DNA from: Polytrichum commune
Lineage: Eukaryota > Streptophyta > Polytrichopsida > Polytrichales > Polytrichaceae
Length of the DNA: 64,000 nt
Reading direction: 5' to 3'
Assembly: GCA_950295325.1 (NCBI GenBank)
Contig: OX485803.1
Span: forward strand, 65,053,554 to 65,117,553
The translations under genes were made by a program, and so were the position numbers. The notes below the pieces were generated by a model. The model made no database searches. It worked only from the letters and a program-made list of their open reading frames with translations, and was not told the DNA's origin. Positions 8,940 to 49,290 of this stretch are shown here, piece by piece. The first letter of the stretch is position 1. Each line of letters begins with the position of its first letter.

Positions 8940-9840
8940 CAATTTGTACCGGGTCTTAAATCCTTTTTTGGCCAAGTGTTGGGAAAGTGAGGTTGCTTTG
9001 CTAGCTAATCTAGAGGGGAATAGGTGGGCAAATTGTCGTTGAAAGCTCGTAGTGAGCTTGAGAGCTTATAATTCTATGGGAATTTCTCCAAATTCGGCTA
9101 GCAAAATATAATAGGTATTTGTAGAATGCACTTTGACATGAGACAACATATGCATCTTCTTGCCCTTCTCAAAAAGCTTCCAACAATGAGAGTTTTCAAG
9201 TGGCCTCCCAAAATTTTCCGTGCCACATGTGAAAGTTGGAAGCACCAAAGCCTTGAATAGATGGCATTTCAGTTCCCAACATGTGACTATTGCCTCTTTC
9301 CTTAAAGTGCCCATGAAGACTTTCATACTTGTGATTCTTCATCTTTTGCTAGATGGCTCAAAGTACCATGTGAACAAAAATCAATCCCAAGGTATTCGCA
9401 TTCATGGGTCATCTCGAGTTGGTCTTCGTATAGGCAAAACGCCTCTTGGTTTAATTTCTTTTTGTTGCACCCAAAAATCATAATTTTGGTTTTAGATAAA
9501 TTGATTTCAAGGCTAGAAGCAGCGCAAAACTCATATAGCTTGTTGAAAGGTCCTTGTAGGCCTGTTCTTAATTTAGAAAGTAGAACAACATCGTCAGCAT
9601 GAAGAAAAATGACATGCACTTTTCAAACAAACACAAAGAACCACCGTCAATCTCGTCCAAATGCGGTCCATGTTCGTCAATGCACAAGGCAAGCCGTATA
9701 GAGCGTGGGAGCGCGAGAGAGAGAGGACATCCGTTCTTTAATACCACGGAGAATATGATATCTTCTTTCAAGGTCCCGGGGCCTTTTCCATCCTCCTTCC
9801 GTGTCACCGTCCGTCCATCCGTCCATCCATCCGCCACCTT
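8940..9840 (-). pseudogene. LINE reverse transcriptase fragment
   Basis: Minus-strand frames encode in order a PLSLAL-like block, a CIDEHGPHLDEIDG block, the catalytic ADDVVLLS motif of non-LTR reverse transcriptases (near 9,595), the KTKIMIFG thumb region, and a C-terminal part with GTLRKEA and LAEFGEIPIEL. Frames break several times, so it is dead. The second LINE at 39,380-41,850 has the same family words (NKRKLNQEAF, YLGIDF). N-terminal RT and endonuclease regions are absent, consistent with 5' truncation. Confidence 0.85.
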
Positions 9841-14499: not shown

Positions 14500-17400
14500 T
14501 CACACACTGGAGCTCGCTTCCGAAGTCTGCTTGACATTCACCAACGCTCGAACATTGGAGGCTAGACTGGTCATGAAAGAAGTTCTCGTGACAATTCTTC
14601 GAGGAGGCTTATTAGATTGCAGTGCTGGCGATGATGGACCCCTAACTCACAGAAACGAGTTCTCAATGACATGGAATTTAAGCATTGCATACAATGATAA
14701 TAATAATAATAATAATCATTCATTAGTTACCATAAATATACTGTATTAGGTCAGACCATGCGGGATACAATCATATTGTTCTCTCCAATTGAATACTGTT
14801 ACAAGCAACAATTTGATTAACAAGCCTTCCAAGGTAAATTTTTACGTACTTGTTTCCAAGATTCATCTCAATTTGCTGATTGTGTGGAGGATCAGCAATT
14901 GACAACTGCAACTGGCCACTCTCTAATTCCTATATTCGGCCACCATCACAATATCAAGTAAATATAGGTATAAATGTTGATACATAGATAGTCTACAAAT
15001 TGAACAGAGCTTTCATAGAAAATGCGGTAGACATGCCTAATTCCAACTTAGCGACAATCTGGACACCTATATATATTGGAGTGGAGTGTGGCTCAATAGT
15101 CAACATAATTGTGGGGACCCATATGACCATTTAATGAGCAGAGAATCTTCACTATGATGAATGAATAAGATATTCGTATGAGCTCCAAAATCTTGAGACA
15201 AATGGTTGCGGGCAAGATTTGGATTTGCTAATTCATCTTGCACTAATTGCATGCTTCTATTTTGTACGAGAAGCGGGTGCAGAGAGGAAGGATCCATCTC
15301 AGGCACGTCTTACTTTAGTGTGAACATATAGACTTACCGAGTCATCAATGTGTGAGATTTGAAAACATGTGTGATCAGTACTTTCATGGTTCACGCAATC
15401 TGAACATACGATCTGTCCGAAATTGGTCATTGGTTTGTCCACCACATTATCTTCACTACTTGCCATTGATATCCATTCCAACCTGTTAAACGTCACCAAA
15501 AGATCATTAATATCTCAAGTTAATAATTTCAAGATCTATGCTCCCAAAACTGAAAAAGTTGCATTCTAATGTACCTTGAAGAGGGATTGTGGTCAAAGCC
15601 TCCATCAATTTGTTTTAGAGGTGCTTCGTCATGAATAGAATCTTGTGGAATTGCATTGCTGGATGAATCAATAACATGCGAGTCAACACCATTCTGCAGT
15701 ATGGTGCAAGTGAAAATTGTGAATTTCTTGGCTTTCCGGAAATTAAGTGGCCTTTAAACTGCCCACTTCAAATCGAGGCAGCAGCTATTGCCCATATATA
15801 TATATATAGGTCCCCTTCAAACCTGTTGATTATTGAACTTAAGATAGTTGACAAACTTTCAGCATATAATCCAATCTTTTTTAAACACATTTTTCTTTGG
15901 TGTCTATTCTTAGATTTATATCTAACCACTTACCACTCACATATAGGTGTTTGAATCTTAAGATAAGTAACTGAATTACGCTCACTTATCTTACATAACA
16001 TTACTTTGAGATGAGTAGAAGTAAGAATTGATGTCACAAACTAGAGACCTAGAGGGACTAGGCTTCTACAAACGTGTAAATCATCAAAATCTCATATATT
16101 CAACTTTCGAGTGACTACCTCATGAAAGTTTGAGGTCATCGCTTCAGAAGATTTGTCATCGATGATTGGTTGAGAAGTTAGTTTTGTTTGTGATGGAGTG
16201 CTCAATTTCCTCTTCTTTGTGAACATGGATTGTTTTGAAGCAATATCTTCTTGTGACTCCCTATTCAAAAATTAAAACATATGTTACTAAGAAATTCCAC
16301 AATAACTTGTGAATTGTAAAAAAAATTAAAAAAAAAATCCACCACAACCATATTAAATTGTAGCTTACTCTAGCCTACCTCATGATGCTCAACGAGAATG
16401 GCGGTTCAAGGGAAGTGTTGTTAGAGCGCTTCTGCATAAGTTTGGCTTCGCCTCCAACCTACATAGAGAATAAATTGTTAATACGAAGCACTCAAGAGTT
16501 GGAACATGTGCTTTGGGGAAAATTATATGCTAGGAATTGAACATGAGGAGTTTAGAGCTTTCAATTTTGTCACAAATGATATGCCTCATTTAGGAAGATG
16601 GGGAGTTTATATGTTAGAAATTTTCGAACATGTGTATTCTGGAGAATGTTTTGAAGTAATTCTGGGGACACATACGACAGCTTATAATTTACACCGTCAA
16701 TCCCTGGAACTACCCCAATTATATTTGCATGTCCATCTTCCATCTCCAAAGCCCTGCAAAAGGTGTTGCAAACATTCAGAATCTGGAATGCACTTCAATG
16801 TTCTGCCTACCTATGTGGCTGCACAAGAATGCCAAAAAGCACAAAGTAATTCGATTTCATGGGTACTTAGAAAAGCAGACATTCTATTTAAATTTGACAA
16901 TGAAAGTCAATGGTAGTAATATAGAGAGTGAGTACGTAGTACTTGAATCCTGAAAGGTTTTATACATATTAATTGGCAAGTATCTGACAAGTCCTTCAAA
17001 CATTTGGATGCCATAAAAGTTCATGATTGAACAAAATTCTTACCCCATATTGGATGATGTGCAGCTCGAAGCCATGGCTAGCCTCTTCAAAAGTGTTAAA
17101 TCCTGAGGATCATTTATGAGGTCAAACCTAGTCTTGTACTCAAGCAAACAACGACTCTTTTGGTCATGCTTACAAAAACAAATCTTTCTCAAAAGTGGTA
17201 CCCAACATTATTTAATTGTTTCAGCATCAAAATGAAGTGTATTGATTCATAGCAATATTGAAATATAAGGTATGTGGGCCTTACGTGGTCACACTTCTTA
17301 ATCAGACACCTATTTGTAAGTGCTATATGGCAAGGTTTGTAGTTAAGGAAATCACACCAGACTGACCCATGTTATGATGCAATTGAAGTATGTGCACAAT

Positions 17401-20400
17401 ACAAACATCATTCTAGGTTCAATAGTTACCACAATTGGAAAGACCTATATGATCACTTAGAGAATGAGAATTTTCACTTTGATCTCTTATAACTTGTGCA
17501 TTAGTGCACAAGGTTCATGTGGTCACCTTATTGGACCATGTCATCGGGTTCAATATTTTCACACAAAAGTGGGAGAAAGTCATGATTGCAATTATCTAGA
17601 TTGTATGCAAACTTCCCCAACTTATTGTTGCATTGTGGTGGACGTCATCAATGATTACGTCCCCCTGCACTATAGTAAAAATTACTACATGATTAGACTA
17701 GTGTTTTCCATCTTCTAAATTGGTCAATTTGCCAGTGACTAGACCATGTTATCCTTGTAGTGAATTCATCTCCTATTTTGAAAGTTGAAATTTCAATCTT
17801 TGTGATTTACAATTGCTAATTGGATGAGTCAATCCAAGGGCCATAAGTTGTATGTGTAGTTGAAATTGCCCACTATAGGGGCGCACACCTTATATGAATT
17901 TTATTTACTTAGGATGCATGGGAAATACATTGAAGATATGCACCTCAATCTTTGATGCTTGTGAAATTTTGGACACTTGTTTCCCTTGCTTCATCGGAGG
18001 AGCTTTTGAAGGTTGATGGGAGGAGGCCAAAGTAGTACACCTTCCAAAGCAATTTGGCTGGAGATTCTTGACATCTTTGTTGCCTAAATATGGTAGTCTA
18101 TGTTGATGCAATACACCAAGAAGCTAACATTAGTTGCAAAGTGTCATGAATATAAGATTATATTTGTACTTTGTGTGCGGTGATTAAAAGGAGAATTAAT
18201 AGAGTATAAAATGTTGATGAACTTATACTAAGTTTGTAGCTTTAACTATGTTACAAATAAATTTTGCAATATTCACTTACTTACGATTGGATCTCTCACT
18301 ATTGTTGTCAGTTGATGATGATATTGCATTGTTATCATCACCAGGAAGTCTTGCATTCTTAGTTGGTCCCTCACATTGTTCACACTGAGCATGGAAATCA
18401 AAAGGTTAAATACAATCCAACCGCAATATGAAACAATATTGGCGAGTAGGCTTTAAATAAGACTTGCACCATTTATTTCAACTTCGAAATAGTGTGGATA
18501 ATGGATAGAGTGCAAATGTCTTAGAATTAGAGTGGAGCACGTCTAAGAGTGCCGAATCTACAAAATCACAAGCGGAATGATGTGTCACATGGCTTGGCAT
18601 AATTCATGTATCAATGAAGGTGTGACTATGATATATGACATGTTGTGATGCACACCAAAAACAACGGTGGTGCCACATTACACATACACAAGTGTTTCTA
18701 TATCAATCGGCTTCAAAATACATCCAATTGTGCACACCTAAAATCAAGGGTATTGTGATCACAAAGAATATGCTAAATGGTCTCCAAAAACATATAAACC
18801 AAGTGAAGGCATAGCATAACCCATGTGCAACACATGGCAATTTCATCAAGTACCTATCGTGTAACACACCGTGAACACAAACAAGTGAGTGAAGGCTCCA
18901 ACATAGGTACTATTTGGCCATGGATTACCAATTTAAAACTTCAATGACCTTCATGTTTATAAGACATTGCGAGCTGAATGTGGCATGCAACTAGTGGCCT
19001 TGCATTCTTACAATCTTAAGGTGCTAGGTAGGATCATAAACCAATCACTCTCCAAGAGCAAAATGGTTCTTAGACATCGTCATGCTTTCTCCATCCAAGG
19101 AGGCATGATAGCATCCATAATTTATAGATTTTGTCCACGATCTGATTGGTTATGATCTATAACCAACTCGAGTAGGTGGATGACTCACCGCATTTGCGGC
19201 TTGTCATTCACTGTCCTCGTGCTGGTAATCTAGTTTGTAATAAGTCATTCAATAACCACTTTATCCCATACAAAAGGTGGGAGTGCATGACCAACATGGG
19301 TTACACAATGGATGCCCCTATGTGACCACAATGGGTCACATGGGTGAACTCTTCACTTAGAAATACCCTAAGAACTCAAGATACTTATGGTTCAAGTATG
19401 TTGAGTTGCATGGCTTCCATATCCACCTTGAATTGCTAATGTAATGAGATGATCAACATGTAAATTCGATCGCTCTAATAAATATGCAAACATTGCAAAA
19501 TGTCCACGATAGGTGGGCTTATCTTACCTATTTGCACTAATTCTGCAAACTTATTGTGTTTCCTGAATTTGATGAATCACTCACCTGGTTGCTTGTTGGG
19601 ATGTTGGATTCTACTTGGCCAATTGTCTGCACATCCCTTGTCACCGACTCCCTCTTCATCCCTCCTATTGTGTCCATGCTTATTTTGCAACTTCCAAACT
19701 CTCTTTTCAACTGTGGTGGTGAGGTGCCCAAAATATAAGGATTCCAACCAAGGTTTGTTTCCAGGGCTTTGTCTGATGTCTCTGGTTTCACCTTTGTTGT
19801 TGAAGAATTCTTCCTTGCAATATGAGAATTGTTGTTTTCAGTTATTTGGTTTTGTGTTGTTGTTCCAGATAACATCCTAATCTTTTCAGTAGACGGAGGG
19901 TTGCTTTGAGGTTTTTCTACTATTGACCTCTCAACATGAGGATTTTCTTCTATTGGTAGAAACGCCCTTCTTGCAACTTGAGGAGGATTTTCTACTCCTG
20001 TTGGTAGAGGTATGCTTCTCTCAACATCAGGAGGATTTTGTGACGTTGTTAGAGATATCATTCTTTCAGTATGAGGATTTTCTTTTGTTGGTACTACTGT
20101 TGGTAGAGACATCCTTCTCTCAACATTATGAGGATTTTCTACTGTTGTTAGAGACATCCTTGTTTGAATCTGAGGACTTTCTCCTGTTGGTAGAGACATC
20201 CTCCTCTCAGCATGACGAGGATTTTCTACCGTTGTTAGAGACATCTTTCTTTCAGTGTGAGGGTTTTTTCCTGTTGGTAGAGACATCCTTCTCTCAACAT
20301 TAGCAGGATTTTCTTCTGTTGGTAGAGACATCATTCTCTCAGCATTAGCAGGATGTTCTACTGTTGTTAGAGAGATTTTTCTTTCAGTCTGAGAATTTTC

Positions 20401-23400
20401 TCCTATTGGTAGAGACAACCTTCTCTCTGCATCAAGAGGATTTTCCACTGTTGGTAGAGACATCTTTCTCTCAACATTAGGAGGATTTCCTACTGTTGTT
20501 GGAGAGATTTTTCTTTCAGTTTGAGAATTTTCTCCTATTGGTAGAGACAACCTTCTCTCAACATTAAATGGATTTTCACCTGTTGGTAGAGACATCCTTC
20601 TCTCGACATTAGGAGGATTTTCTATTGTTGGTAGAGACATCCTTCTCTCAGCATAAGGAGGATTTTCTATTGTTGTTAGAGACATCCTTCTTTCAGTTTG
20701 AGGACTTTCCCCTGTTGGTAGAGACATCCTTCTCTCAACATTTAGAGGATTTTCTGGTGCTATTAGAGACATCATTCTTTCAGTCTGAGGATTTTGTTCT
20801 GTTGGTAGAGAAATGATTTCAAGATGCTCATCTATTCTTGAAAACTTTCTTTCAATTTGAGGATTGTTTTCAGGTTGGTCTTGTGTTGTTACAAACATAT
20901 TCCTTTCGGTTTGAAGATCAATATCACCTGGGGTTTCTGTGTTGAAAGATGGAGTTCCTTCAGGATGAAGGTTACCACTTTCAGGCAAGGTTTCTGTTGT
21001 GAAAGACTTCTTACTTTTAGTATGAGGAGGACTACCCTGAGACTGAGTAAGGATTTCCTCATAGGAGTTGAGGATCGACTTTCGCTGCTCAACTGTGCTT
21101 GATACAGTCTCAATAGGCTCAAATTTGAATTGGTCGATGACTGTAGCTTGTAGGGATGTAAATGGATTGATCCACCATGCACTTTGTGCTGCATTTTGAG
21201 ATGTGTCCACATGTTCTTGTTGTTGTTCAGCATCATCAACAGTTTTTGATCCTGATTCATCCATATTTGTTTGAACACTTACACCCATCCTCGGCCACCA
21301 TGAATATTCCTCCTCTGGTTCACGGGGTGAGGTTTGTGATGCATTTGATGTCACATCGATTCCTGTGGTCCTCGCTAGCCAACCTAAAAATGTCTCATCC
21401 TCAGTTACAGTTGATGTTTGTACGCCAATCTCTGATGGCTGCTGAGCAATGCTACTACTTTCTTTGGACACTTTGGAGTCATTTTGTGTTGACGAGTTTT
21501 GATTGTCTACGTTATTACTTTGGCTGGATTTGTCGGTACCAAAATGCAGACCCATCGCAGAAGGTAGGAGGCAAACACTCGGACCACATAAATCGTGAGT
21601 ATCACTCTTCACCTCAATGTTCGTGGGGGCATTGGCAATGATGTTTGCAATTTGTTGTTTGATATTTGCACTTGATGCAAATGTTGAAAAATCTTCATGA
21701 TGAGTATCACCTGATGGAGAACTTGCTGGTAAGTATGGATGGGCATCATCATCACATGAGAAAATGTCTGCAATTTGGTTATTAATGTCTGGTTTTGATG
21801 CACTACTTAACATCATCGCCTTTCCCATTGCAACGGCATTTGATATTACTATGACATCGTCACTTTGGGTCTCACTATCTACAATACGTGGAATATGGGG
21901 GCTCTCAACATCTTCTGTAGTCGTCGTTGCAACAACTACAGATTCAAATTGAGATTTTTTTCTTGGAGGCACATTCACCGCTGGGGAGGATGAGGGGCGG
22001 CGGTATGGGTCTTCAAGTGCAACAAAATACTCAGGGTTACAACTTGGTCTTTGGATGTATGGCGACATCATCTTGGGAGCCATGACTTTATAATGATTTT
22101 TGTCTTCTTTGTGTAATTGATCATCACGAGGTTGAGTTGCCTCCAAATTGTTTTTGACTTGGATGTATGGCAACATCTCGGCGGGAGCCATAGCCTGAAG
22201 ATGATTCTTGTCTTCTTTGAGTAATTGATCATCATGAGGTTGAGTTCCCTCCAAATTGCCTTTGGCTTGGATGTATGGCAACATCATCTCCGGAGCTATA
22301 GCCTGAAGACGATTCTTGTCTTCTCTGAGTAATTGATCATCACGAGGTTGAGTTCGCTCCAAATTGTCTTTGGCTTTGGATTTGGTTGGCACTTGCAAGC
22401 ATTCGGGAAACCTAATACGACGCTCTTTGCATTGTGCTTTAGAAACTTCTTCACATTGTGAAAACAAACTCTCAAGCATGCTGAGTTCGTCAAACAATTG
22501 CCTTGACAACTGCCTTTTCTTACCACAACTAGCAAGCTTATTCATTGACTCATCCACATGATCACACCAACTCGAGATTGCATCTTCTCCAACTCCACCC
22601 AAGTTCAAGCAATTTTCCGAATTAACCTTGAACCTGTCATTCATATCTTCAGAGGGTAAGGTCACCGGGTTATTATTCTCCCGTTGTCCCACCACACAAT
22701 TCGATTTTCTCGTCTCATTCCACCAATGTGAGCCAATGCCTTTTGGTGCAACTTCTTTGCAAGGCCAACTTAGGTGTGTTTGTAGATGATCTCTTTGATC
22801 TTCTGTGGGTGTCAGGGAGGGCGGTCCACATCGTGCATGATTTGATGAAGATGATGATCCTCGATGGTTGGGAATGTTTATCATCTCTACTGGCTCAACA
22901 ATATTCTTCATTCTTGAGAGTGGAACACACTCATTTCCTTTTGATGAGTACACACATGAGTTTAAAACAATTGAGCTTTCCAACAATGCCCCGTAGATCG
23001 TTTTGATTTGTGTAGGATCACTGCACTTCAACAGAAGTTTGTAGAGCAGGATAGGCCGGCTCGGGGATTTCTTCGGGTAGGATGAATTTCTTTTTACATG
23101 GTTTTCTTGCATCTTGTTCAACTTTTTGGGAGGTTGGGTAACGCTCTCATTGAGAATTTTGGAGCTTTTGAGTATGGCGGCCTGCAATCGATTGACTTGC
23201 TGTGAGTCGTAGCATTCAACCAAAATCTCGTACTCAAAAGTGGGCTCTGGTCTTGACGAGGATGATGATAACCTAGGGTTAAGATTCTTGTCCTCCACAT
23301 TGATGAAATTGGAGTTTACATGGTCCTCCAATCTCTTGTTGTTAGGGAATAGTCCATCGTAATTCATACTTGGTTGAAGCTCCTCCTTTGCCTCCTGATG

Positions 23401-25183
23401 ATCAACACCAAACTCCATGTTCTTTGTTTTCGACACTCTTCCAGGTCTCCTAGTTGTGAAAGATTCACGCTTCAAACCTTGTTGCTTTGACATATCCCTA
23501 TCCCGATCCCGTCCCTTCGGATCCATCCCTTCCGGTTGCATCATCCCTCGATTGCTTGAATAGGTTGTAGTTTCACAATTGAATTGATCTTGTCCATCCC
23601 AAGAATTATGTCCACTTCTATCCATTTCAATTGTGTTCTCCAGAGGCTTTGCGCATTCTGGCCACCGTCCTCCTTCAAGCTTTTCCAGATTCCGTTTCAG
23701 TGGAGAATCTCTTGTCTTCAAGCAGCTTGCCATGACATCTTTGTAAACATGACCATCATTGCCCGGGGGGTCTCTATCAAAACATTGAACAAAATCAGGT
23801 GAAGCCCCTAATCATGTAGCTTCTTAACACCATGCAATAATAGGTATACACATATTTCTGGTGGGTAGGAGGATACATAGATATCCATGTTGATTATTGA
23901 GCATGCTTATTACAACGACATTAAAAACTTCAAGGAACAACCCATATTTTAGAAGAATTCCAGGTCTCGACGTCATGCCCTTGCACGGAACTTAGTTTGG
24001 AATTGAAGAAATGGAATGTTTGCAAGGGGAAACACATTTTTTAGTGCAATGTTAACATTATGTTCTGTTTGCATCATCAACATTAGGTCAAGTTGTACAT
24101 CGAGGGTTGGAAACAACTATTCACTTCTTTAAACAATCTTCAAGAATCAATAGGAAACAACAGACAGAGAGACATACAAACAAATAGTTGACCAAACCTG
24201 CTAATGTCTTGGTGCATAAAAATGGCATACTTATCAATATCTTCCCCTGACTCGGTGAGTTGCATGGGACTTGTACCGCGCAGTTTGTTGTTCTTGGAAT
24301 CTTTGTAAGGCCCTCTGTTCAAGCTACCACGTGTGCCGCTCAAGTAAGGAAAAGGGGGAGGGTGTGAAGGAGGTTGTGATGTTGATGATCCTATATCATG
24401 TGCACCACTGCCAACTTCCCTCAAAGCATCCAACCTTTGTTGCACATTATCACTCTTGTTTTGTTGTTGTTTTTGTTGTTGTTGTTGTACCTCCTTGTCA
24501 GGATGGCCATATACAAAACCCTCATCCACCACTCTCTCCTTGCTCAGTGGCCTCTTCACAAGGTCGGAGGCAAATTGCAATGTCCGCTTTGATGGCACTC
24601 TCTGCACTGCGATGTGGACCTGTGGTTGATTCATGTTGTTGTCCATGTACTTCTTTGTGTCATACAATTGCTCCATGTTGCTATTGCTCCTATTACTCGT
24701 CATGCCCGCACACCCATCAGCAAGATCTGGAGCAAACGTGCCCACTTTGTAAAGTTGCACAGAGTTATTTGGTGTCAACAAACTCAAGTTCAAGTCTGTG
24801 GAATATGTGCCTTGTTCATCTGCCTTTTTTGCTTCGAATTTATCCCACTTCTTCTGCCATGGGGTTATGTTTTTCTGCATCTTTTGCAACGTGTTGGTCC
24901 TGAACCTCTGCAATGCGCAAGAATTGTGATCAAATCTGTCTTTCAGCATTGACCCTAACCTTTCCTCCTGCATCTCAGTTGCAAACCTAGACCTCTCTGG
25001 TGTCGGAGCTGTGTGTTGAGGCCTTCTATCTCCACCTCTTGGTCGGGCGGCCGACGATCGCTCCTCTGTCATGTTTCGGTATCCTGGACTAGCACCACAA
25101 AAGTTCACATGGACGTCACCAAGACGCTCTCGTCTATGTTGGGATAGCTCCGCCTTCAGGTTGTCAATCTTGTGGTTATCCAT
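14500..25183 (-). CDS. Large unrecognised repeat-rich protein, 11 exons, about 2,053 aa
   Basis: I recognise no family. Exons (minus strand): 25183-24198, 23773-19585, 18384-18285, 18083-17944, about 17082-17044, 16458-16379, 16260-16119, 15693-15575, 15482-15338, 14929-14850, 14641-14500. All joins are GT-AG and keep frame, and most donors fit plant consensus (CAG/GTGAGT after exon 2). The 39-nt exon 5 and its acceptor are the weak link. The protein is hydrophilic and probably mostly disordered. It has a basic helical N-terminal part with the block ITPWQKKWDKFEAKKADE, a Q-rich stretch (about residues 240-255), two similar 31-residue segments, three 36-37-residue repeats, VQT/SQT motifs, a 20-fold RRMSLP-type repeat, a KKRKL basic patch in exon 7, a C-x2-C-x2-H-x4-H-x-C cluster in exon 9 and a basic C-terminus (PPRRIVTRTS). 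There is no signal peptide or membrane span. A scaffold or cytoskeletal role is only a guess. Confidence 0.8.
15022..15317 (+). mobile_element. Repeat B copy in the intron between exons 9 and 10
   Basis: Left end GCGGTAGACATGCCTAATTC and right end CAGGCACGTCTTACTTTAG match the TAAGGTAAGCAGGCCT-type inverted ends of the copy at 28,112-28,492. The internal order of blocks (GGGGACCCATATGA, AAGATATTCGTATG, CACTAATTGC) matches 29,970-30,110. It lies inside the large gene's intron, opposite to transcription. Confidence 0.6.
17268..17830 (+). mobile_element. Repeat B copy in the intron between exons 4 and 5
   Basis: Starts TAAGGTATGTGGGCCTTACG and continues with GTCACACTTCTTAATCAGAC, shared with 29,830-29,865 (GTCACTTCTTTATCAGAC). 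Right end not resolved. Confidence 0.55.
19915..20815 (-). repeat. 20-unit coding repeat, alternating 15 and 14 residues
   Basis: Within exon 2 of the large gene (about residues 1316-1615), units of 42-45 nt encode ENPPNVERRMSLPTG alternating with a shorter ENPQTERKMSLTTV type. I count 20 units, the last three degenerate. About 16 of the first 17 keep Arg three residues before the Ser (R-x-x-S); unit 15 keeps it only as QTRMS. Ten also have Pro at +2 (SLP). Alternating unit types show that the pair was duplicated as a unit of about 87 nt. Repeats vary by substitution and not by frame, so the frame is under constraint. Confidence 0.92.
22045..22375 (-). repeat. Three coding repeats of 36-37 residues
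   Basis: Also in exon 2: three tandem units of about 108-111 nt encode NLExTQPxDDQLLxEDKN followed by a short linker, MAPxxMLPYIQ and a linker. Frame is kept in all three. This is a second, independent tandem expansion in the same exon. Confidence 0.9.
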
Positions 25184-26360
25184 TCTATGTCTGATTGCAA
25201 ACTATGCAAAAACAATCACATGAGCTACATATCAATTGCCCCTGGACACCTTCATGGGAAGCGTGGTGCCATTGATTATAATTGTTGCCCCTATTGCATT
25301 ATTTTGTGTCTCAAACATTGGGAAGTGAAAGTTGTCCAAATTTCGGAGCTAAAGTCACTATACTGTATATCTAATTTTGTATAACATCAAGACTTGATGC
25401 GTCATGTTGAAATTGATGTGCCAACAGAAGTTCACATGCGTGTCACCAAGACGCTCTCCTCTTTGCTGTGACAAGTTGGCCTTCAAGTTGTTGATACTCT
25501 TGTGGTGGTTATCCATTTGATCTCTGATTGCAAACTATGCAGAAGCAATCACATGAGTCACACATCAACCGCCCTTGTACACCGTCATGGAAGCACAATG
25601 CCATTGATCATAATTGTTACGTTTGTTGCATTCTTGTATCTCAAACTAGGAGTTGAATGTGTCCAAATTTCGGAAAGGGGCTCACTACACTGAATACCTG
25701 ATTTTGTGTAACATCAAGGAATGATGCGCCCTGTTGAATTTGATGTGCCAACAGAAGCTCACATGCACGTCACCGATCTCGTTTCTCATATGATAACTCA
25801 ACCTTCAAGTTGTCGATACTCTTGCGGTTGTTATCTATATAATCTCTCATTGCAAATTGTGCAAAAAGCAAAAATTACATAAGTCACATATCAATCACGC
25901 ATGCAAAGTCTAACTCTTTCCACACCTTCATTGGAAGCATGGTGCTATTGATAACAATTCTTGCGCCTCCTGCTCCATCCTTTGTCTCTCAAAATCATCG
26001 AATTCATTGTGAGGTGAATGTGTCCAAATTTCGAAGATGGAGTCACTATGTTGTACATCTGATTTTGTGTATTGTCAAGAATTGATGAGCCCGCTCTTGT
26101 CTCTACTAGGACAACAACCCAGCCTTCATGTGGTCGATCTTGCGGTTGATATCCATTTACTCTCTGATTGCAAATTGTTTAAAAGCAGCAATCACATGAG
26201 TCACATAGCAACCACCCCTTGCAAAGTCTTACTCTTCTCACCACCTTCATTGGAGCCATGGTGCCATTTGGTTACAACTCTTGCGCATGCTCCATCCTTT
26301 GTGTCTCAAATTCCTTGAATTTACTGGAGGTGAATGTTGTCCAAATTTCAGCCTTAGCTT
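25075..26360. repeat. Four tandem copies of the gene's 5' end, unit about 320-330 bp
   Basis: Anchor words TGATTGCAAACTATGC and the start-codon region recur near 25,160, 25,490, 25,810 and 26,131. The first unit contains the start and first 30 or so codons of the large gene. Unit 2 still reads MDNHHKSINNLKANLSQQ in the minus frame, unit 3 has lost the ATG and has a stop, and unit 4 keeps the ATG and then stops. The array therefore duplicates the promoter-proximal region plus the 5' coding end, with decay in the distal copies. Confidence 0.85.
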
Positions 26361-26384
26361 TTGGTTGGCTTTGCTTAAATTTTG

Positions 26385-27090
26385 GTTCATTTTCTTAAGC
26401 CCTATGGAACCCACAACAAGGTCACCTTCCTCTCTCAACCCTCCATGTAACAAGACATCTCTTTCACAAACATAATTTGCACACCTACATTGCTTCTAGT
26501 GCGGACATCATGGTAAGTACATTGACTTCAATATCATATCGGTTAATTGGCCTCCTAAGGAAGCAAGCATAAATGAAGAGCCTCATTGCCTGCAAAATTC
26601 TATCACCTTTCGGTGGAGGTGGAGATTTTTGCTTTATTTCTTAAGCCCTATGTAACCCACAACAAGGTCAACTTCTTCTTAGAGCACTCTAGATTGTAAG
26701 ACGTACCTTTCAAACACATGTTGTACACATACATTACTATTGGTGACCACATTGATTGCAATATCAAATAGATACATAGATTGGCTTCTTGAGGAAACAA
26801 GCCTAAATGATGAGCCTCTTCGCTCACAAGCTACTGTCACCTATCGGCGGAGACTTCTGGTTCAGTAGGCCTTGTGTAGCCCACAACAAGGTCACCTTCC
26901 TCTCTTAGCACTCCAGGTTGTAAGACATACCTTTCACACAAATTTGCACACATGCATTGCTATTGTTGTAAACAAGGTGACCACATTGAGTGCAATGGCA
27001 AATAGATAGATAGATGTGTTGATTTCCTGAGGAAGCAAGCATATATGAAGAGCTTCTGCGCCTGTTGGCTATTGTTCACCTTTCAGTGGA
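26385..27090. repeat. Three tandem units of about 225-247 bp
   Basis: CCCACAACAAGGTCAACTT-type blocks recur near 26,407, 26,654 and 26,879, each followed by TTGTAAGACATACCTTTCA-type, TTGCACACATGCATTGCTA-type and GAGGAAGCAAGC blocks. No conserved frame. It lies directly upstream of the 5'-end array of the large gene and may be part of its 5' region. Confidence 0.8.
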
Positions 27091-27955
27091 GGGTACGACT
27101 CCAGGAGACGCAGACTGAGTTGACAAATCCAATATCTAAAAATCTAAGAATGGAATGCTCTGAGGTTGAGAGCATACTCCATCCAACTCATAAATTATAC
27201 TGGTCAAAATTAACACATACTGCAAAGATGAGCATGAATTGATTTTTGGCTCCCAACCACAAGATCATAACCCTAATAATACTCTGTAGTCCTGAGGTGG
27301 ACTACTCTAATCTTCACACCATATATGGATAGGTAGCTCTGTTCTCTGCTTGTCGTCAGAAAAAAAGCCGCTGACTGGTCTTCAAATCTTGAAAGGGCAC
27401 AACGCGACTCTCTGAATCACGTCTGATCATTAACTTCATTTCCCTAGTAACAGTTTGTTGTATCCATATAACCATTTCTTTTGTCGTCTGCTGTCCACAA
27501 ATGGATGCCATCACATGAGATAGAACACAAATCCAAATGGAGGATGTAGACTAAGCCGAAGCACTGTCATACAAATTAAGTGAAAACTTCAACTATTGTA
27601 TGGATTGATTGCTAAGCAACCTTTCAAGATTTTTTCAATAACAGCATGCCTTTGTCACTTTATGTGCTTCATGTGTCAAGAATTTTAACATGATGGGATT
27701 TGAGTCCTTCAATACCCAATGGCATCAAAATTTACCCAAAACCCACTCATTTGATAGTTGCAAGGATTTGAAGGTCCATGTTCAATATACGACATTAGGT
27801 ATCTCTGTTCATATTACAATTTCATACAACTTCTGTCAATGTTTATGTGTAGCAACCTAGCCTGCCAAGCTGGCAAACCCTATCCACATACATCCATGTA
27901 TTTTACAAAAAGAGAAGCCCATCCTCATCAACTTAGTTTTTTTTCTCGGACACCC
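27091..27955. other. Intergenic, no gene seen
   Basis: This separates the 3' end of the phosphatase gene from the repeat arrays upstream of the large gene. I see no supported frame. Confidence 0.5.
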
Positions 27956-30736
27956 CTATGCCTGAAGTAGCATTTTTATTATGGCCTCCACGTCCCTTGC
28001 TGACGTCCACGTATGAACAGTAGCTTTTACAGCACTGCTTTCTTTCAATTTTTTCAGAAGAGGGAACCTGCATATTGACACATAATAAGATGCATGCCCC
28101 TTTACAGCATGTAAGGTAAGCAGGCCTAATTCAATTATATCTTAATTGGACAAACTATATTTGAGTAGTGATGTGGTGAGGTGTGGATCTAAGTACGGAG
28201 ACCAAAAAGGCATCAAGTGTTTACAAGAGATTGGACTATGTGCTCAAAATTGTTAACTATCCTAGGTTCCATATTCAACATATTTGGGCAGACATAGATC
28301 CTATAGACACTCATTCAAAGAAGAAAGAGTATTTTCTTGATAATAAAGATAATATTGATATGGGTTCAGAGTATTGTGAGAAAAATGGCTATGGCCACAA
28401 TTTGGAATTGTGAATCATCTCATGCTAATCGCATGTTTGATACGAAGTGGGCACATAGTAAAAAAGTGTTCATTCCAGGCCCACTTACCTTATGCTTAAA
28501 TTCAACAAGCTTCACAAAAACATCCAAGGAATGTGAATACCTGTTTCTGGCTAGAACATGGTCGCCATCCAAAAGTCGCAAGGAAGGACAGAAGTCTCCA
28601 CCGCCGTCCCCGACATAAATCACACGCCTTCTTGCAGTGCCTTCAGCTTCAAGTATGCTATCTAAAATGGATCCCTACAGAACATGATTAAAAATGTTCC
28701 AACAATAAGCTACAGACAGTAGGAACATCAATACTCAGCAAAACTCATACATCAATAGAGATAGCTCTCTACCTCAACATGAACTTTGGCTGGGAATTCA
28801 TTGTTTTGCATACAAAAGCTTTCATGTACGGTAAGTTTTCAGTGCATGCTTGGAGGAAGTGTGGAGGTTTGAACAGGAACACTCCATATCGGTTCATTGA
28901 GGGTCAAACTCATTTTGCCATGCACTGAAATGAGTTTGGCCCTCAATAAACCCAAATAGGTTGCTCTTCATTCAAATTCAAGCTCTACCTCCAAGCATGC
29001 ACCACAAGTGGAAAGAAATTATTGATATTATATGCAATACATCCAATGGAAAATTACAGGGGGACCAACTTCAGACAAAGAGTCCCATTAAGTTAAAGGA
29101 TAACTCTAATGATGGTTTTGTATTTCATGATGCAAAGACATCACAAAAGCTGGAAGAGATTGGGGTGCTTGTATAGAAGCACAAAAATATTTGGAATAAA
29201 AAACCAGGACACCTTCTCCAGCCTGGAAAACATTTGGCACCATACCTTACACATATTAGGTGGACATAGAGGGCACCCATGAGGCAACTTGTCGTCCAGA
29301 TGGAAAGGGAGAACCCGCAGAGCTCCACTTTCAGCCAAGTGCGCTGGGTTTGTGTGTACTTTTGTGAAATGGTGCCGAAGGCCGTGCTTGTCCAGAATTA
29401 CTTCGATAAAATGTGAGTTCGCATCGCTCACAATGTGAAGTTCACATCTGGGGGAAAGTAGAAGATGTTGTCATTAAGGGCTTTTTGGGCATGTGTGCAA
29501 GCGCAGGTTCTTGAACCAAGGGCTTTAGCAAGGAGCATAATGAGACACATTGTTATACTTGAGAATTAACCCAACCAGACCTCCAACCAAGTTTTGGTTA
29601 CATACCCAAGTTTTGCCGCCAATTGAATTGTTGCTATCATTACGGGCTCAATGGGAGCCAATTGTAAACACTGATTAATGTCATCTAAGGAGCAACCAGA
29701 GGTATGTAGCTGTGTCATCATTGTGTCCTACACATGACAAATTTGCCATGGTCAGTTGCAAGAAATGAATGATAACTATATGCATAACAGAGGTGGAGGG
29801 GGGGAAATGGTAAAGTAAATTAGGTCTGCAGGCCTTTCATGGTCACTTCTTTATCAGACAGCTATATTTGAGTGGCATGTGGTTAGATGTAGATCTAAGA
29901 ACGGACACCAAAAAGAAAGAGATTGGACTACATGGTCAAAATTTGTTGATCGTACTAGGCTCAATGGTCCACATAACTGGGGGGACCTATATGACAAGTC
30001 AATGAACTCAAGAATCTTCTCTTCAATAAGATATTCATATGGGCTCCGAAACTTATGAAGCAAACGGCCGCAGACACAAATTGGAATTGGTAATCGTGTC
30101 GCACTAATTGCGTACAACACATCCTAGGAGATGTGGGTGCAGAGCTAAAAGTGTCCATTTCAGGCCTGCTTACCTTAGGAACAACAAAGGCTCTGAGTAT
30201 CAGAACTGGACATAACGCAGCAAAACCATAAAGAAAGGATGGAGAGACCAGGCATGAGCCAGTGGCACAAACAAAAAAAACACAACTGTAGTTTGGCACA
30301 ATAGAAATACAAACCATAAGTTGATTGAAGGAAGCACGACACTAAACCCAACACAAAAACCCATACACAATCTTTCTCTCCTTCTTTCTTGAAAATGACG
30401 CCAACGAAAGCAAGAGCAAGGCAGAGTGAAAATACAAACCATAAGTTGTGTCCAAGGCAGTGTGTGGAGGAGCGATTTCATGGTATCCCCTCCTCCCAGC
30501 TTTTCGACCACCCAAGTGTCGCTGTTGCAGTCTATCAAGCTCCAGTCAAAATCAAACACTATGACCGTGTTTGTATTAGTGTTTGTAGTGAGCTCCCCCA
30601 CAAATTCTTCGGATTTTTTGACTCTTGTGTTCTTGGTGAAATCTTCCAGCACCCCCAATGCTTCTTCAGATCCTCCAATTCCTTTCTGCTCTGAGACCCC
30701 ATTTTGCACCACCAATCCTTCGCGACCGAAGTTCAT
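27956..30736 (-). CDS. Phosphoethanolamine/phosphocholine phosphatase-like HAD hydrolase, 5 exons, 288 aa
   Basis: Exons (minus strand): 30736-30440, 29727-29606, 29447-29246, 28674-28541, 28067-27956. All GT-AG, frame kept, 867 nt. The product is a cytosolic HAD-superfamily phosphatase of the PHOSPHO1 / plant PECP1-PS2 family, which releases phosphate from phosphoethanolamine and phosphocholine during membrane-lipid turnover. Motif I is DFDWSLID (residues 62-69, catalytic Asp62 and Asp64), motif II is SDAN (147-150), LCPPNMCK follows (200-207) and motif IV is GDGGGDFCPS (229-238). Length matches the family (about 280-295). The first 55 or so residues, before motif I, are a longer, low-complexity N-terminus (TTNTNTNT) than usual. 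I chose the ATG at 30,736; an in-frame GTG three codons earlier is not needed. In plants these genes are commonly induced by phosphate starvation; I saw no clear P1BS site just upstream. Introns 1 and 4 hold repeat B copies. Confidence 0.93.
28112..28492 (+). mobile_element. Repeat B copy in phosphatase intron 4, with clear inverted ends
   Basis: Left end TAAGGTAAGCAGGCCT and complement of right end TAAGGTAAGTGGGCCT give about 16 bp of terminal inverted repeat with two mismatches. If TA is the target duplication, the element would be Tc1/mariner-like, but the flanks do not prove it. Length about 381 bp, no coding. It occupies most of the 473-bp intron. Confidence 0.65.
29817..30183 (+). mobile_element. 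Repeat B copy in phosphatase intron 1
   Basis: Right end CAGGCCTGCTTACCTTAG is the complement of the family's TAAGGTAAGCAGGCCTG end; the left end TTAGGTCTGCAGGCCTTTC is diverged. Interior blocks match 15,080-15,300. No coding. Confidence 0.6.
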
Positions 30737-31540
30737 GGTGACCACTCCTTCAAGGCTCTCTTTCTAGACCTAACCATGAGAGCTACATACAAATGTTGCA
30801 GATAAGAATTCCTCTCGCAAAGCATTCCTAAGCATGTGTAAGGATGTATTCTTTCTATTCTAATTTATTAATTGTCAAGAGTCAAGGTCCATGAATATGT
30901 GCATGAATGCCAAGGATAGTCAAGTGGCAAGCCCTCATTAATCATCACCAACCTCATTGTTGTTGCCTATCTTTAGACACAAAGCCTTCTTCCATCTACC
31001 AAGATTTTGATTGAAGAGGTGTGTCCAAGTGGAACATTGTTTAGGTTATCCAGTTTACCTCACAGCAAAAACTTCTATTTCACCCTCATGTAACATGGTA
31101 AATGTTGGTAATTTTGAAGGACCTCTTGTAACTTGCAAATCCATAGCCTAGCTCTTGTAATTGAAGAGAACTACTACTTGCAAAGTGGTACAAATGGAAC
31201 TCAAAGTGGACATACCATCATGACAATCGTGGCAGTCTAGAGTATGGTGGACTCGTTTGAAGCCTCTCTAGTCCAAAGACTAACCTTCATATTATTTAAA
31301 ATCATTGAATGAGCCTTACTTTGCAAGAAAGTTTGAATGAACAGATGTGCTAACTACACCGCTCGATGAGGGCAGTTCTCATTGGTTGAATCTGTACTCC
31401 AATATCTGCAGAAGGAAACAAACAAAGAATTAGAGATTGCATTAAGGACTGCTTATATATGCACCTCTTGGATTGAGTGGCCATACAAATGTTGAGAAGC
31501 ATCCATGGGACATGACTACGAGGAAAGGCAGCCCTATCAC
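30737..31540. other. Upstream region of the phosphatase gene, no other gene seen
   Basis: This should contain the phosphatase promoter. I see no convincing TATA box at a fixed distance and no other frame worth reporting. Confidence 0.45.
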
Positions 31541-31549
31541 AACTCTGAC

Positions 31550-32600
31550 AACAACTCAAACTAGTCACAGAGATGTACTTTGGATTTGGTGTTGCTAAGT
31601 GCACTTGAGTTGAAGGCAGTTTGAGTAAACCTAATTCCATGAAGACGGCTACTGTGCAAAATGTCATGTCTATTTTGAAGTGCATTTGTGGTGCATTTGA
31701 GGTTTGCTATAACTTGGGTGGTTGCTATATGCACTTCAATTGAAATTTGAATGTTCAATTCCAGCCCTCTTTATGGCCTCGGATTTACTCAATTTTCTTG
31801 AAAATATTCAATTCGAATGGATGTACCAACATCCAAGCCATCGCTATCCCCAAATCCAAATCATGTGCACAAGAAAGCTTAAAATGGAAGTAGCCTAGTG
31901 CACATCGGCCCTCATCATGGAGTTGGGTTAACTCAAACTTCTTGAAGATCTACAATTTAAGTGCACGTAGCAACACCGAATCCATAGGCAACCTCAAATC
32001 CACCACAAATCCACAACAAAGTTTCACAAGAGGACATGACATTGTGCACATCAGCCCTCTTCGTAGTGTTGGATTTAGTCAACTGCTTCCAAAATCTCGA
32101 TTACAGTTCACGTATAAACAATGAGTCCACCTCTTCATACACAACTAAGCTTCAGAAAAGGACATGACAATGTGCACATCAGCCCTATTCATGATGTTGA
32201 ATTGCTCAACCTACTTCATTAATTGTAATTTGGGCGTGCATAGCGGCACCCAAGCCATAGCCAACCTCAAATCCACCTCAAATGCACAACAAAGCTTCAA
32301 AATGGACAAGACATTGTGCACATCAGCCCACTTCACAGCCTTGGGTTTAGTCAACCTACTTCCAAATTTTCAAATATAGTGCACAAAAATACAACGCATC
32401 CACCTCTAATGCACAACAAAGCTTCCGAAAAGGACAAAAAATGTGCACAAAGCACCACCCAATCCATAGCCAACCTCAAGTCCACCCCAAATGCACAACA
32501 AAGCTTCAAAATGGACACGACATTGTGCACATCAGCCCTCTTCATGGCCTTGAGTTTTACTCAAACTTCTTCCGTAAAAGTAAGAGAAGATAGCACCCCT
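31550..32600. repeat. Minisatellite, units about 130-150 bp, with inverted flank copies
   Basis: GACATTGTGCACATCAGCCC recurs near 32,038, 32,166 (one change), 32,309 and 32,519, with a diverged copy near 31,895. Between anchors come CATAGCCAACCTCAAATCC and CAACAAAGCTTC blocks. At 31,560-31,760 about 1.3 units occur in the opposite orientation. Open frames across the array (such as 32,316-32,921) are by-products of the repeat, not a gene. Confidence 0.8.
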
Positions 32601-34500
32601 GAAGCCATAGACAATCTCAAACCCCCAACAATTGCACAAGACATCCTCAAAGAGAGGTTCCGGAGGGCACTCACTCACCATAGCCCAGATCACTCTAACA
32701 TCACCACAGCTCCGGGCTTCCCCTCCAACACTACGTCTCCGTGCTCAACATCAACCAGAGCTTCCACCGAATTATTTATGATATCCGGCTCTACAGGGTA
32801 TAAGAAGTTCATACCCGCCAGAGCTTCGGTTATATCATCCTATACCCTGGTTGACGTTAACATGTTAGGGACCTATCCATTAGTTACCCTACCGGTCCTC
32901 GTCGGTTTCGTTCATGATTAAATTTAGCTAGGTCCCCCTATGTAGATTTTTCTAAGTGTCACATGGCGTGTTGTCATTGGTTGATCGTATTATTAAATAT
33001 TATGTAGCATTTTGAGAATTTCTTTTTTAGAACATTCACATAATCATTTTCAAATCATTTTTCTTTGTGGTCCCTATAATTCATCAAATGCATTGAGTCT
33101 TTGAGCATCACATAGGGTGGTCCACTAAAGTTAATAATTTGATAAGTGAAAACGACCACAAAACCACACTTATAGCTTGTGAGAGTCTTGTATGAAATAA
33201 GGGTATTGTTTGACATCTTGTTGAACACTTCTTAAACCCAATTGTTGAGCAAGTACATTCCAAATTAGTCTTTATGATTGATCAAAGTTGGTTTGTTTCT
33301 TAAATTGTTCATGTATTCTTCTTGCTCTGCCACTACGATTAGGCAATGTGGTTCTATTTTGTACTTAATGCGACATGTGATTAGTGGCTTTAATTTATTT
33401 TTCTTACTCTTATGCACACTTGCACGTATTATGAGAATGAATATAGGTGTTAGAATCATGTAAGTGACACAATATGGACTGCTTACCATTTGTAAGTATG
33501 TTAATCAAAGAGGTGAGCCTCTATGAAAGTCCAAACAAGAGCAATCTCATGTTCTAACATTTGCGAATGTCCTTCGCATGGAAGTCCATGAAAAATCACT
33601 TGCAAACATAGTATTCTAGAAAACATCACATTCACATGTGATGCTTTTTTCCTTCAAGGCCGACTTAGTTTCCAATCTTGTAGAATGCACTTGAACTTTG
33701 GAAAAAGTTGTACTTGGCAAAAAACTACCTCCAAAGACCAGTTCAAGCTAATATTCCTTGCATTTGAGAAAACAATATATATGACATTCTTACGTGCCAT
33801 GTGACGTTTTCACGAATACCATGTTTGCATTGTGTAGCCAACTCCAATACTTATCTATGGCATAAGAAAAATAAATACATAGGTGACATTATATATTGGC
33901 TAAGCGTCAACAATTTGAAAAAAAAAGTAATTGTGGGAACCCCATTAAATTCAAAGAATTCATAGTAATTAAAAAAGCTTTGATATAATGAGTGCTCCCT
34001 AATATTCATATCTTTTTAAGTCTAGAGTGCAATATGTAGTGGTTAGGGTCAAGTGATATTTTTGATATGTCCAATCATGATTGGATATGAGGAGGCCCAT
34101 TGCCACATGTAGTTGATGACTATGTCATGAGCCCACCACCACAATCAATAACGAACATGTGCCACCCTGTCATCGATGTTCATAAACATCCAACAACATT
34201 CCCATCTTTATTGCCGCTTGAGTAGGTTGGAGATCCTATTACAACTTGTGCAAGGCTCCTTCCATACATCACCGAATACATATTAGTTAAATAAATATTG
34301 TGAATTATGTGTATGAACAAATATGAATGAATCTGGTTTGGGTTCATGTCATCCCGGGCAATTGCACTCATGCATACTAACTAATGTCCCCATGCCATCA
34401 TATACCGTTTGCCCAACATGCCACCATATGAGACAACCAACCGCTTTAGAACTTTAGAACAACAACATCCGCCCTCACCGTTGCCCAAGCCCAATTGTTT
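32601..34500. other. No gene seen; AT-rich intergenic
   Basis: A 201-codon plus-strand frame ends at 32,921 after leaving the minisatellite; its last 100 residues (about 32,620-32,921) show no family features. From 33,000 to 34,500 I see no gene or defined element. Confidence 0.5.
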
Positions 34501-38962: not shown

Positions 38963-38979
38963 CAGGCAAAGTGTCCTGA

Positions 38980-39052
38980 TGGAGACGCCGGGTATCGATC
39001 CCGGTACCTCTCGCATGCAAAGCGAGCGCTCTTCCATTTGAGCTACACCCCC
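38980..39052 (-). tRNA. tRNA-Ala (anticodon UGC)
   Basis: The 73-nt gene folds as a full cloverleaf: acceptor GGGGGTG/CGTCTCC, D stem GCTC/GAGC, anticodon stem CTCGC/GCGAG with loop TTTGCAT (anticodon TGC), T stem CCGGG/CCCGG, discriminator A73. The G3-U70 wobble pair, the identity element for alanyl-tRNA synthetase, is present. Box A is TAGCTCAAATGG and box B GGGATCGATACCC. There is no intron and no encoded CCA. An open frame on the same strand is incidental. Confidence 0.97.
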
Positions 39053-40319
39053 AGATTCATGATGAAAACAGTATTTAGTGTTTATTATCACATAAGACGT
39101 TCGGACATAAGAAACACTCTTATTTGGGATGCAAACAAAAGGAATTACGTCTTTTGCTAAAAAGTGATCCAAAATTGTTTTGGAAGAGCTTTGAAGAAAT
39201 AAAAAATTCTTCCTTCTGATTTACGCCACAAGAAGCAATGGATTGTAGCACAAAATTATACACCTCATGCCAAAGTATCAATGATCATTTTGTCCCAAAC
39301 ATTTGATTTGTAGATGCTTTAACATAAAGGAAAGATGGGTCAATATGAATGATCTAGAAAATTACAAGGCATGAGATATTCATGGGTTTAAACTTGAGTT
39401 TTTGAAATGGGTGCAACTGATCTATGTGAGCCACTCACAAAGCTGTTTAATTTAGTGGCTAGAGAAGGTTTTCCCGGCTTTATGGATACCAACATTATTC
39501 AAATGGTTGTCAAATTTGATGAAAGAAGCTCCTTGGGGAACTATAGGACCATAATGCTTGGCACAATCTTTAGCAAGCTCTACGGCTCTGCTTTGGAGAA
39601 AATAATTATTCCATAAGCATAATTGAAAGGGGTTAGAGTGAGAGGCCAAGCATGTTTTAGGGAAGGCAAATCTATTGTGGACCACATCCTTACATTATGT
39701 AATTTAATTGAACAAGAAATATATGTAGGTCGATGTCTCTATTCCTATTTTGTTGGCTTCAAAAAAAATTTCAACATAGTTCCATGTGACAAGCTTTGGG
39801 AACGCCTTTGATAATTAAGCATACCACTTCATTTGCAACAAGTTGTAAAAGCTATGCATACTGTAGTTTACGCAAAAGTATGAATCAATGGTGATACACA
39901 TTGCAAAGTAATGTATGACATCATAGTTATACAAAGATGCCCCCTTTCCCACACCCTATTCAACTTGTACATTGATGGACTTGAAAATATTTAGACGAAA
40001 TTCATGAGGATTTTGCATGTTTATTTGATAGAATGGTTTCCATTCTTCTTTATGTTGATGATGTTGTTCTGCTCTTCAAATTAGGAGCATGCCTACAAAG
40101 ATTTTTGAACAATCTACATGAGTTTTGCACTTCATCTAGCCTTCAAGTTAATTTATCTAAAACTAAAAATCGTGATCTTTGGCCGTAACAAAAGGAAATT
40201 AAACCAAGAGGCATTTGACCTATACAAGCACCAAATTGAGATGACCCAAGAATATAAATACCTTGGGATTGATTTCTATTCACATGATTACTTTGAGCCA
40301 TGGAGTAAAAGGTGAAGAA

Positions 40320-44550: not shown

Positions 44551-44739
44551 GCGGTCTTAAGGGCGTGCCTATCCAATGAAGATGTCGAGGAGGGCCGGCC
44601 ACCAATCGAGCAAATATGTGTCGAAAGGCTCTCCAATTTTGTTAGGTGTGTTTGCCAAATGTCCAACTTCATCCATCCGTTTAGTGGTTATTTCATATAT
44701 TTGTTGTTCACGCATCATTTATTTTTTCCAGGTATGATG

Positions 44740-46974: not shown

Positions 46975-49290
<2,316 letters not shown>

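Follow-up and report, generated by a model that had tools for sequence, protein, structure and literature searches.

A 12-exon gene of Polytrichum commune with an old twin segment and a young phosphosite-like array: a candidate 14-3-3-type scaffold

A stretch of 64,000 nucleotides from contig OX485803.1 of the moss Polytrichum commune (the window, in what follows) contains on its minus strand a nuclear gene that runs from a first ATG at 25183 to a stop codon at 14500. This is a real gene, in which 12 exons are joined across GT-AG introns with matching phases and encode 2,095 residues with no internal stop. The original prediction had likewise recognized a real gene, and its coordinates hold, but it had joined eleven exons in frame into a protein of 2,050 residues. 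The gene is unusual-looking and without a match above the cut-off in the libraries Pfam, NCBIfam and PDB. All its features described below lie on the minus strand.

Exon 1 (24198..25183, residues 1-329) is found in an open frame at 24140-25201 and ends at a GCAG/GTTTGG donor with a score of 7.7. Its frame scores +75.4 vs -25.3 and -25.1 in the others, exon 1 being itself part of the training set of the coding model. Exon 2 (19585..23773, residues 329-1725, 4,189 nt; donor CAG/GTGAGT, score 10.1) sits in a stop-free frame of 1,424 codons, for which the chance is about 10^-40 in any single frame with the base composition observed there. It harbors three different repeat systems, namely a twin segment, a triplicated repeat and a phosphosite-like array.

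The twin segment consists of copy A (23140..23244, residues 506-540) and copy B (22951..23055, residues 569-603), which confirms a previously proposed duplication while extending it from 31 to 35 residues. The copies share 13 of 35 residues and 50 of 105 bases, and their ungapped BLOSUM62 score is 70, compared with a maximum of 31 among 200 shuffles. They differ at 21, 8, and 26 sites for codon positions 1, 2, and 3, respectively, with a proportion of synonymous differences (pS) of 0.98 and of nonsynonymous differences (pN) of 0.40, and 9 of the 13 identical residues are encoded by different codons. Taken together, the low identity of the bases, the excess of pS over pN and the codon differences show an old pair in which the amino acids have been kept, i.e., a segment under constraint.

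Regarding structure, the twin region was modeled by AlphaFold2 without an alignment as a beta-alpha element and, further along, a beta-alpha-beta element, with a mean predicted local distance difference test (pLDDT) value of 61.7. In Foldseek, the first two ranks are ribosome entries and the third is a designed ferredoxin fold (probability 0.92, E 0.21, template-modeling score 0.66 by target, 9% identity), none of the 661 matches reaching E 0.001. The model suggests that the twin pair may form a small folded domain. Two beta-alpha-beta halves would suit a ferredoxin-like fold, and the low-confidence model does match such a design; however, with this E value, pLDDT and identity, the likeness is a lead only and not a claim of membership.

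Downstream in the protein, the predicted triplication can be found at residues 798-903 (22051..22368) as a 36-residue repeat with starts at residues 798, 834, and 870, which Tandem Repeats Finder (TRF) describes with a period of 108, 3.1 copies and 87% matches. Its copies differ little, and the pN/pS values of the three pairs, over 34-residue stretches, are 1.53, 0.74, and 0.91. The array occupies approximately residues 1299-1604 (19948..20865), with TRF periods of 45, 87, and 132 bp, and comprises 20 near-identical units, as had been counted originally. The common unit is close to V-E-R-R-M-S-L-P-T, the general pattern being V/A/T-E-R-R-M-S-L-P/T, and the spacing is 14 or 15 residues in 16 of the 19 intervals. 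Serine is present in 18 of the 20 units, arginine at -3 in 19, and proline at +2 in 12, the full R-x-x-S-x-P being found in 10. The triplicate and the array are recent coding duplications, unlike the old and constrained twin pair, and the array can be described as a young coding minisatellite.

The remaining exons are much shorter. Since short exons can chain by chance, exons 3-12 were tested both by a frame-specific coding model, trained on exons 1 and 2 without the array, and by a chain search. Exon 3 (18285..18384) is bounded by GT-AG introns in an agreeing phase and reaches +11.2 bits in frame, its acceptor scoring less than 3 with the splice matrix used. It is followed by exon 4 (17944..18083, +8.8 bits), exon 5 (17044..17168), which at +1.5 bits is the weakest of exons 3-12, and exon 6 (16714..16753, +2.0 bits). 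The latter is probably the short exon noticed earlier, which does exist but as the sixth exon with 40 nt rather than the fifth with 39 nt, and it is recovered at all four intron penalties of the chain search, from -8 to -14. Next come exon 7 (16379..16458, +5.1 bits), exon 8 (16119..16260, +16.0 bits), exon 9 (15575..15693, +10.4 bits), exon 10 (15338..15482, +5.7 bits), exon 11 (14850..14929, +7.0 bits), and exon 12 (14500..14641, +8.0 bits), which includes the stop codon. In each of these 10 exons, the predicted frame has the best score of all six frames, and the sum of the exons is +75.7 bits in frame vs -70.7 and -35.0 in the other forward frames, with the caveat that exons picked as stop-free are favored by such a model. 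The 11 introns have a G+C content of 0.25-0.39 and negative scores in all three forward frames; these scores are partly circular because three of the introns belonged to the background training set, which included introns of the same gene together with 25300-30100.

The chain search was controlled by 100 dinucleotide shuffles and 17 real-sequence controls, and the real strand comes out on top with every one of the four penalties. At -14, the real chain scores 54.1, compared with at most 3.3 for the shuffles and 41.2 for the real-sequence controls; at -8, it scores 145.9 and the nearest real-sequence control 121.2. The chain obtained at -14 recovers exons 3-11 exactly as well as the start of exon 12, but misses the end of the latter, passing to a tiny further exon instead of the stop at 14500. 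Extra small exons are added at penalties of -8 to -12, and at -8 the start of exon 9 is shifted. In a run with a penalty of -3, the real strand is again first (247.7 vs at most 226.6 for 9 real-sequence controls and 196.8 for 30 shuffles), the chains being crowded with tiny exons and the real strand less clearly separated from the controls. The splice-site matrices consist of rough, hand-entered values. The exon boundaries are thus supported, not proven.

Exon 1 starts within a tandem duplication with a period of 327 bp (TRF) that extends further upstream, and the start codon is uncertain because the first 30 or so codons fall inside this duplication. Upstream copies of the exon 1 5' end, of approximately 327 bp, can be found in 25424..26184 with an acceptor-like TAG and, in part, the first 30 or so codons; they lie at 25424-25590, 25774-25866, and 26092-26184, and in some of them this TAG and a portion of the reading frame are retained. 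It may be that these copies have decayed or that they serve as alternative first exons. The duplication as a whole spans 25097-26184 of the window, where up to four copies become progressively less similar. Copy 2 is open through the first 30 codons while copies 3 and 4 are interrupted.

At the N-terminus, which had been described as basic and helical, AlphaFold2 without an alignment predicts a short helix (residues 3-21) and a single long basic helix (residues 63-123, 24815..24997) with low-to-middling confidence, in agreement with that description. The pLDDT by ten-residue blocks is 53 for residues 61-70 and 68-78 for residues 71-120, with a whole-model mean of 51.3, and the helix model has no Foldseek match in PDB at E <= 10. 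Near the C-terminus, the anticipated Cys/His cluster is read from the sequence as C-x2-C-x2-H-x4-H-x-C at residues 2000-2013, encoded by exon 10. Pfam matches of the exon 10 frame are weak and all below the cut-off (SLATT_5, DUF5816, and the zinc finger IRF-2BP1_2, E 0.093-0.13, the latter at 0.13). Three further weak candidates were also set aside. DUF4852 (PF16144) matches the N-terminal helix with 15.7 and 18.7 bits (E 0.016 and 0.0019) vs a curated cut-off of 22.8, and was judged a chance match, being below the cut-off in a region that is helical and basic; a whole-genome search for DUF4852 gave none, but nor did any of the 14 control genomes. DASH_Duo1 (E 0.054) and INO4-bHLH (E 0.15) are likewise below the Pfam cut-off.

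Searches of the whole genome (407.8 Mb, 64 contigs) with exon 1, exon 2, the twin region, the N-terminal helix, and exons 3-12 revealed no intact second copy of the gene, with a search from which weak matches can escape. The twin region and the N-terminal helix each found only themselves, exon 1 found itself and the upstream 5' copy, and the nine matches of exons 3-12 all fall at the gene's own exons. Exon 2 found itself and one C5 match to the array (E 8e-4) that is interrupted by three internal stops and is taken as chance similarity. Elsewhere in the genome, contig C8 has two adjacent PsaA_PsaB frames, one of them a psaB by its matches, for which the best-scoring PDB chains are 8htu, 6l35, and 7ksq, from the moss Physcomitrium; if C8 is plastid DNA and the contig numbers follow size, there would likely be seven large contigs, in keeping with a moss of n = 7 such as a relative of Polytrichum. 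The absence of a recognized domain, stated originally, holds in the three libraries: nothing is above the cut-off in Pfam for exon 1, exon 2, exons 3-12, the twin segment, or the exon 10 frame, or in the prokaryote library NCBIfam for exons 1 and 2, and no PDB sequence is matched by either of the first two exons, by exons 3-12, or by the twin profile. No relatives of the twin region were found in prokaryote genomes and none of exon 2 in viral contigs. It can be hypothesized that the protein belongs to a plant family already described but has diverged too far to be recognized with these libraries, as fast-evolving disordered proteins often escape profiles and the searches covered Pfam, NCBIfam, and PDB rather than plant proteomes. 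However, none of the parts searched, including the constrained twin segment, is matched above the cut-off in these libraries, and such a membership is considered unlikely.

The sequence motifs point to another explanation. The protein is probably mostly disordered, 64 of 82 windows being unfolded-like by the charge-hydropathy rule. Compared with 1000 shuffles of the protein, R-x-x-S/T is found 39 times vs a mean of 21.9 and [RK]-x-x-[ST]-x-P 17 times vs 3.3, values reached by no shuffle. When the array is left out, [RK]-x-x-[ST]-x-P still occurs 7 times vs 2.5 (13 of 1000 shuffles), which provides modest independent support, and the genome has 14-3-3 matches at at least two loci. The favored reading, to which a probability of roughly 0.35 is given, is that the protein, for the most part disordered and phosphorylated at many sites, would act as a 14-3-3-type scaffold and contain a single small folded domain. 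From the motifs on which it rests, a scaffold role is plausible.

In such a scaffold, the array serines would be phosphorylated by a basic-directed kinase for Ser/Thr, from the group of CDPK and SnRK2 enzymes, and the units with proline at +2 (R-x-x-pS-x-P) would then bind dimeric 14-3-3. Adjacent units could fill both grooves of one dimer or bridge several dimers, and the length of the array would set the amount of 14-3-3 or of signal required. The N-terminal helix and the folded twin domain would anchor the scaffold to partners, while the gain or loss of a unit by minisatellite slippage would alter the dose-response. The motif preferences described for these kinases are LXRXX(S/T) for OST1/SnRK2 (PMC2978106) and phi-x-R-x-x-S and RxxS for CPKs (PMC11174488). 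The R-x-x-S-x-P of the array fits the CDPK pattern and the 14-3-3 motif and comes near the SnRK2 pattern. T451 of ABF3, within R-X-X-(S/T)-X-P, is described as becoming a 14-3-3 site (PMC2978106), and bidentate binding as strengthening 14-3-3 binding, by a stated factor of 500 in one case (PMC12017986). The ABF/AREB bZIP proteins, such as ABF3, resemble the present protein in having several basic-directed sites including R-x-x-S/T-x-P (PMC2978106), but here no bZIP is above the Pfam cut-off and the sites form 20 tandem copies instead of being scattered.

Several observations weigh against a 14-3-3-type scaffold. Eight of the 20 units lack proline at +2 and two lack the serine, and leucine at -5 is found in none, 18 having V, A, or T there. 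At 14-15 residues, the intervals between units may leave little room for a single 14-3-3 dimer. Outside the array, neither R-x-x-S/T (22 vs 16.1, 71 of 1000 shuffles) nor phi-x-R-x-x-S (4 vs 2.2, 173 of 1000; whole protein 11 vs 3.0) is clearly enriched, and the counts within the array are not independent because the units were copied from one another. The predicted disorder rests on composition. In a CPK/SnRK peptide study, SnRKs are reported to lack a significant motif (PMC11174488). Finally, pN/pS between array units is 1.37 over 13 codons (pS 0.22, pN 0.30) and 0.66 in the six-codon core, values that are rough because they are pooled across all pairs of related copies; with no clear purifying selection in the array, its neutral expansion is therefore possible.

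Such an expansion would make the array a passive coding minisatellite, produced by slippage in a disordered linker, and would leave the N-terminal helix and the twin domain, possibly together with the C-terminal exons, as the sole working parts. The TRF periods, pS lower than pN, and the lack of clear enrichment of plain kinase motifs outside the array are all in line with a passive origin, as is a G+C content at third codon positions of 0.197 in the array vs 0.414 in the rest of exons 1 and 2. On the other hand, the frame is open through all 20 units, the least changed positions (18 or 19 of 20) are Glu -4, Arg -3, Ser, and Leu +1, in a core where pN/pS is below 1, and [RK]xx[ST]xP exceeds chance outside the array too. 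Passive expansion is a serious candidate, if short of probable.

The array may also be read by something other than 14-3-3, in a different kind of linear-motif hub, or the protein may dimerize via LC8-like V-Q-T motifs, found at residues 1113, 1162, and 1710. The MELT repeats of KNL1 and the YxxP repeats of p130Cas are analogies for arrays not read by 14-3-3. As in the p130Cas substrate domain, many copies of one phosphosite motif are carried by a disordered stretch, but p130Cas is an animal protein with tyrosine motifs, and no homology is shown. Similarly, short phosphosite units are arrayed in a long disordered protein in KNL1, but the unit sequence is different and no KNL1-type or other Pfam domain was matched; for the RWD-type domain at the KNL1 C-terminus, there is no Pfam match above the cut-off in exon 2 or exons 3-12, a search that a strongly diverged domain could escape. 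With regard to LC8, [TVIS]QT is found 8 times in the whole protein vs a mean of 2.1 (no shuffle of 1000 reaching this), and LC8-type Dynein_light matches are present in the genome at four places on four contigs. However, three of the eight motifs are in the array, without which 5 remain vs 1.9 (39 of 1000), and the strict [TVI]QT occurs 4 times vs 1.3 (41 of 1000) in the whole protein and 3 times vs 1.1 (92 of 1000) outside the array. An LC8 scaffold was dropped as the leading explanation, the motif excess outside the array being unconvincing, and a hub of either kind is rather improbable. IQT and VQT are described as accepted LC8 cores (PMC12017986).

The 14-3-3-type scaffold can be taken further, to a scaffold of the moss lineage in which a minisatellite-built platform of approximately 20 14-3-3 sites, varying in copy number between populations, would set a SnRK2/CDPK threshold, e.g., in drought or abscisic acid signaling, with a new, small folded domain of two beta-alpha halves as its anchor. 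This extended form is speculative and on balance doubtful. The literature searched, which is a non-exhaustive sample, contains no plant report of such an array.

Other features can be found elsewhere in the window. On the minus strand, a Put_Phosphatase (PF06888) match at 30200-30763 (E 8.4e-9) covers only profile positions 1-50 of 234, a reverse transcriptase fragment is present at 9323-9622 (E 1e-7), and a tRNA-Ala (TGC) is found at 38978-39053 by Rfam and ARAGORN. On the plus strand, a DUF7869 match at 44685-45341 (E 1.3e-34) is probably part of a transposable element, and integrase zinc-binding and integrase core matches at 47533-48654 are probably the remains of a long terminal repeat retrotransposon, the type of element being inferred. 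Diverged direct repeats, with three copies each and 224-246 bp apart, occur at 26379-27064, and degenerate direct and inverted repeats are clustered at 31610-32651, the direct copies being 128-273 bp apart.

If the scaffold reading is true, the gene would provide a plant case of a regulatory phosphosite array built by slippage, the copy number of which could tune signaling, and the moss gene set would gain an uncharacterized constrained domain. Should the array be passive, the locus remains a well-supported gene without a match in the libraries searched, useful for testing the origin of such proteins.

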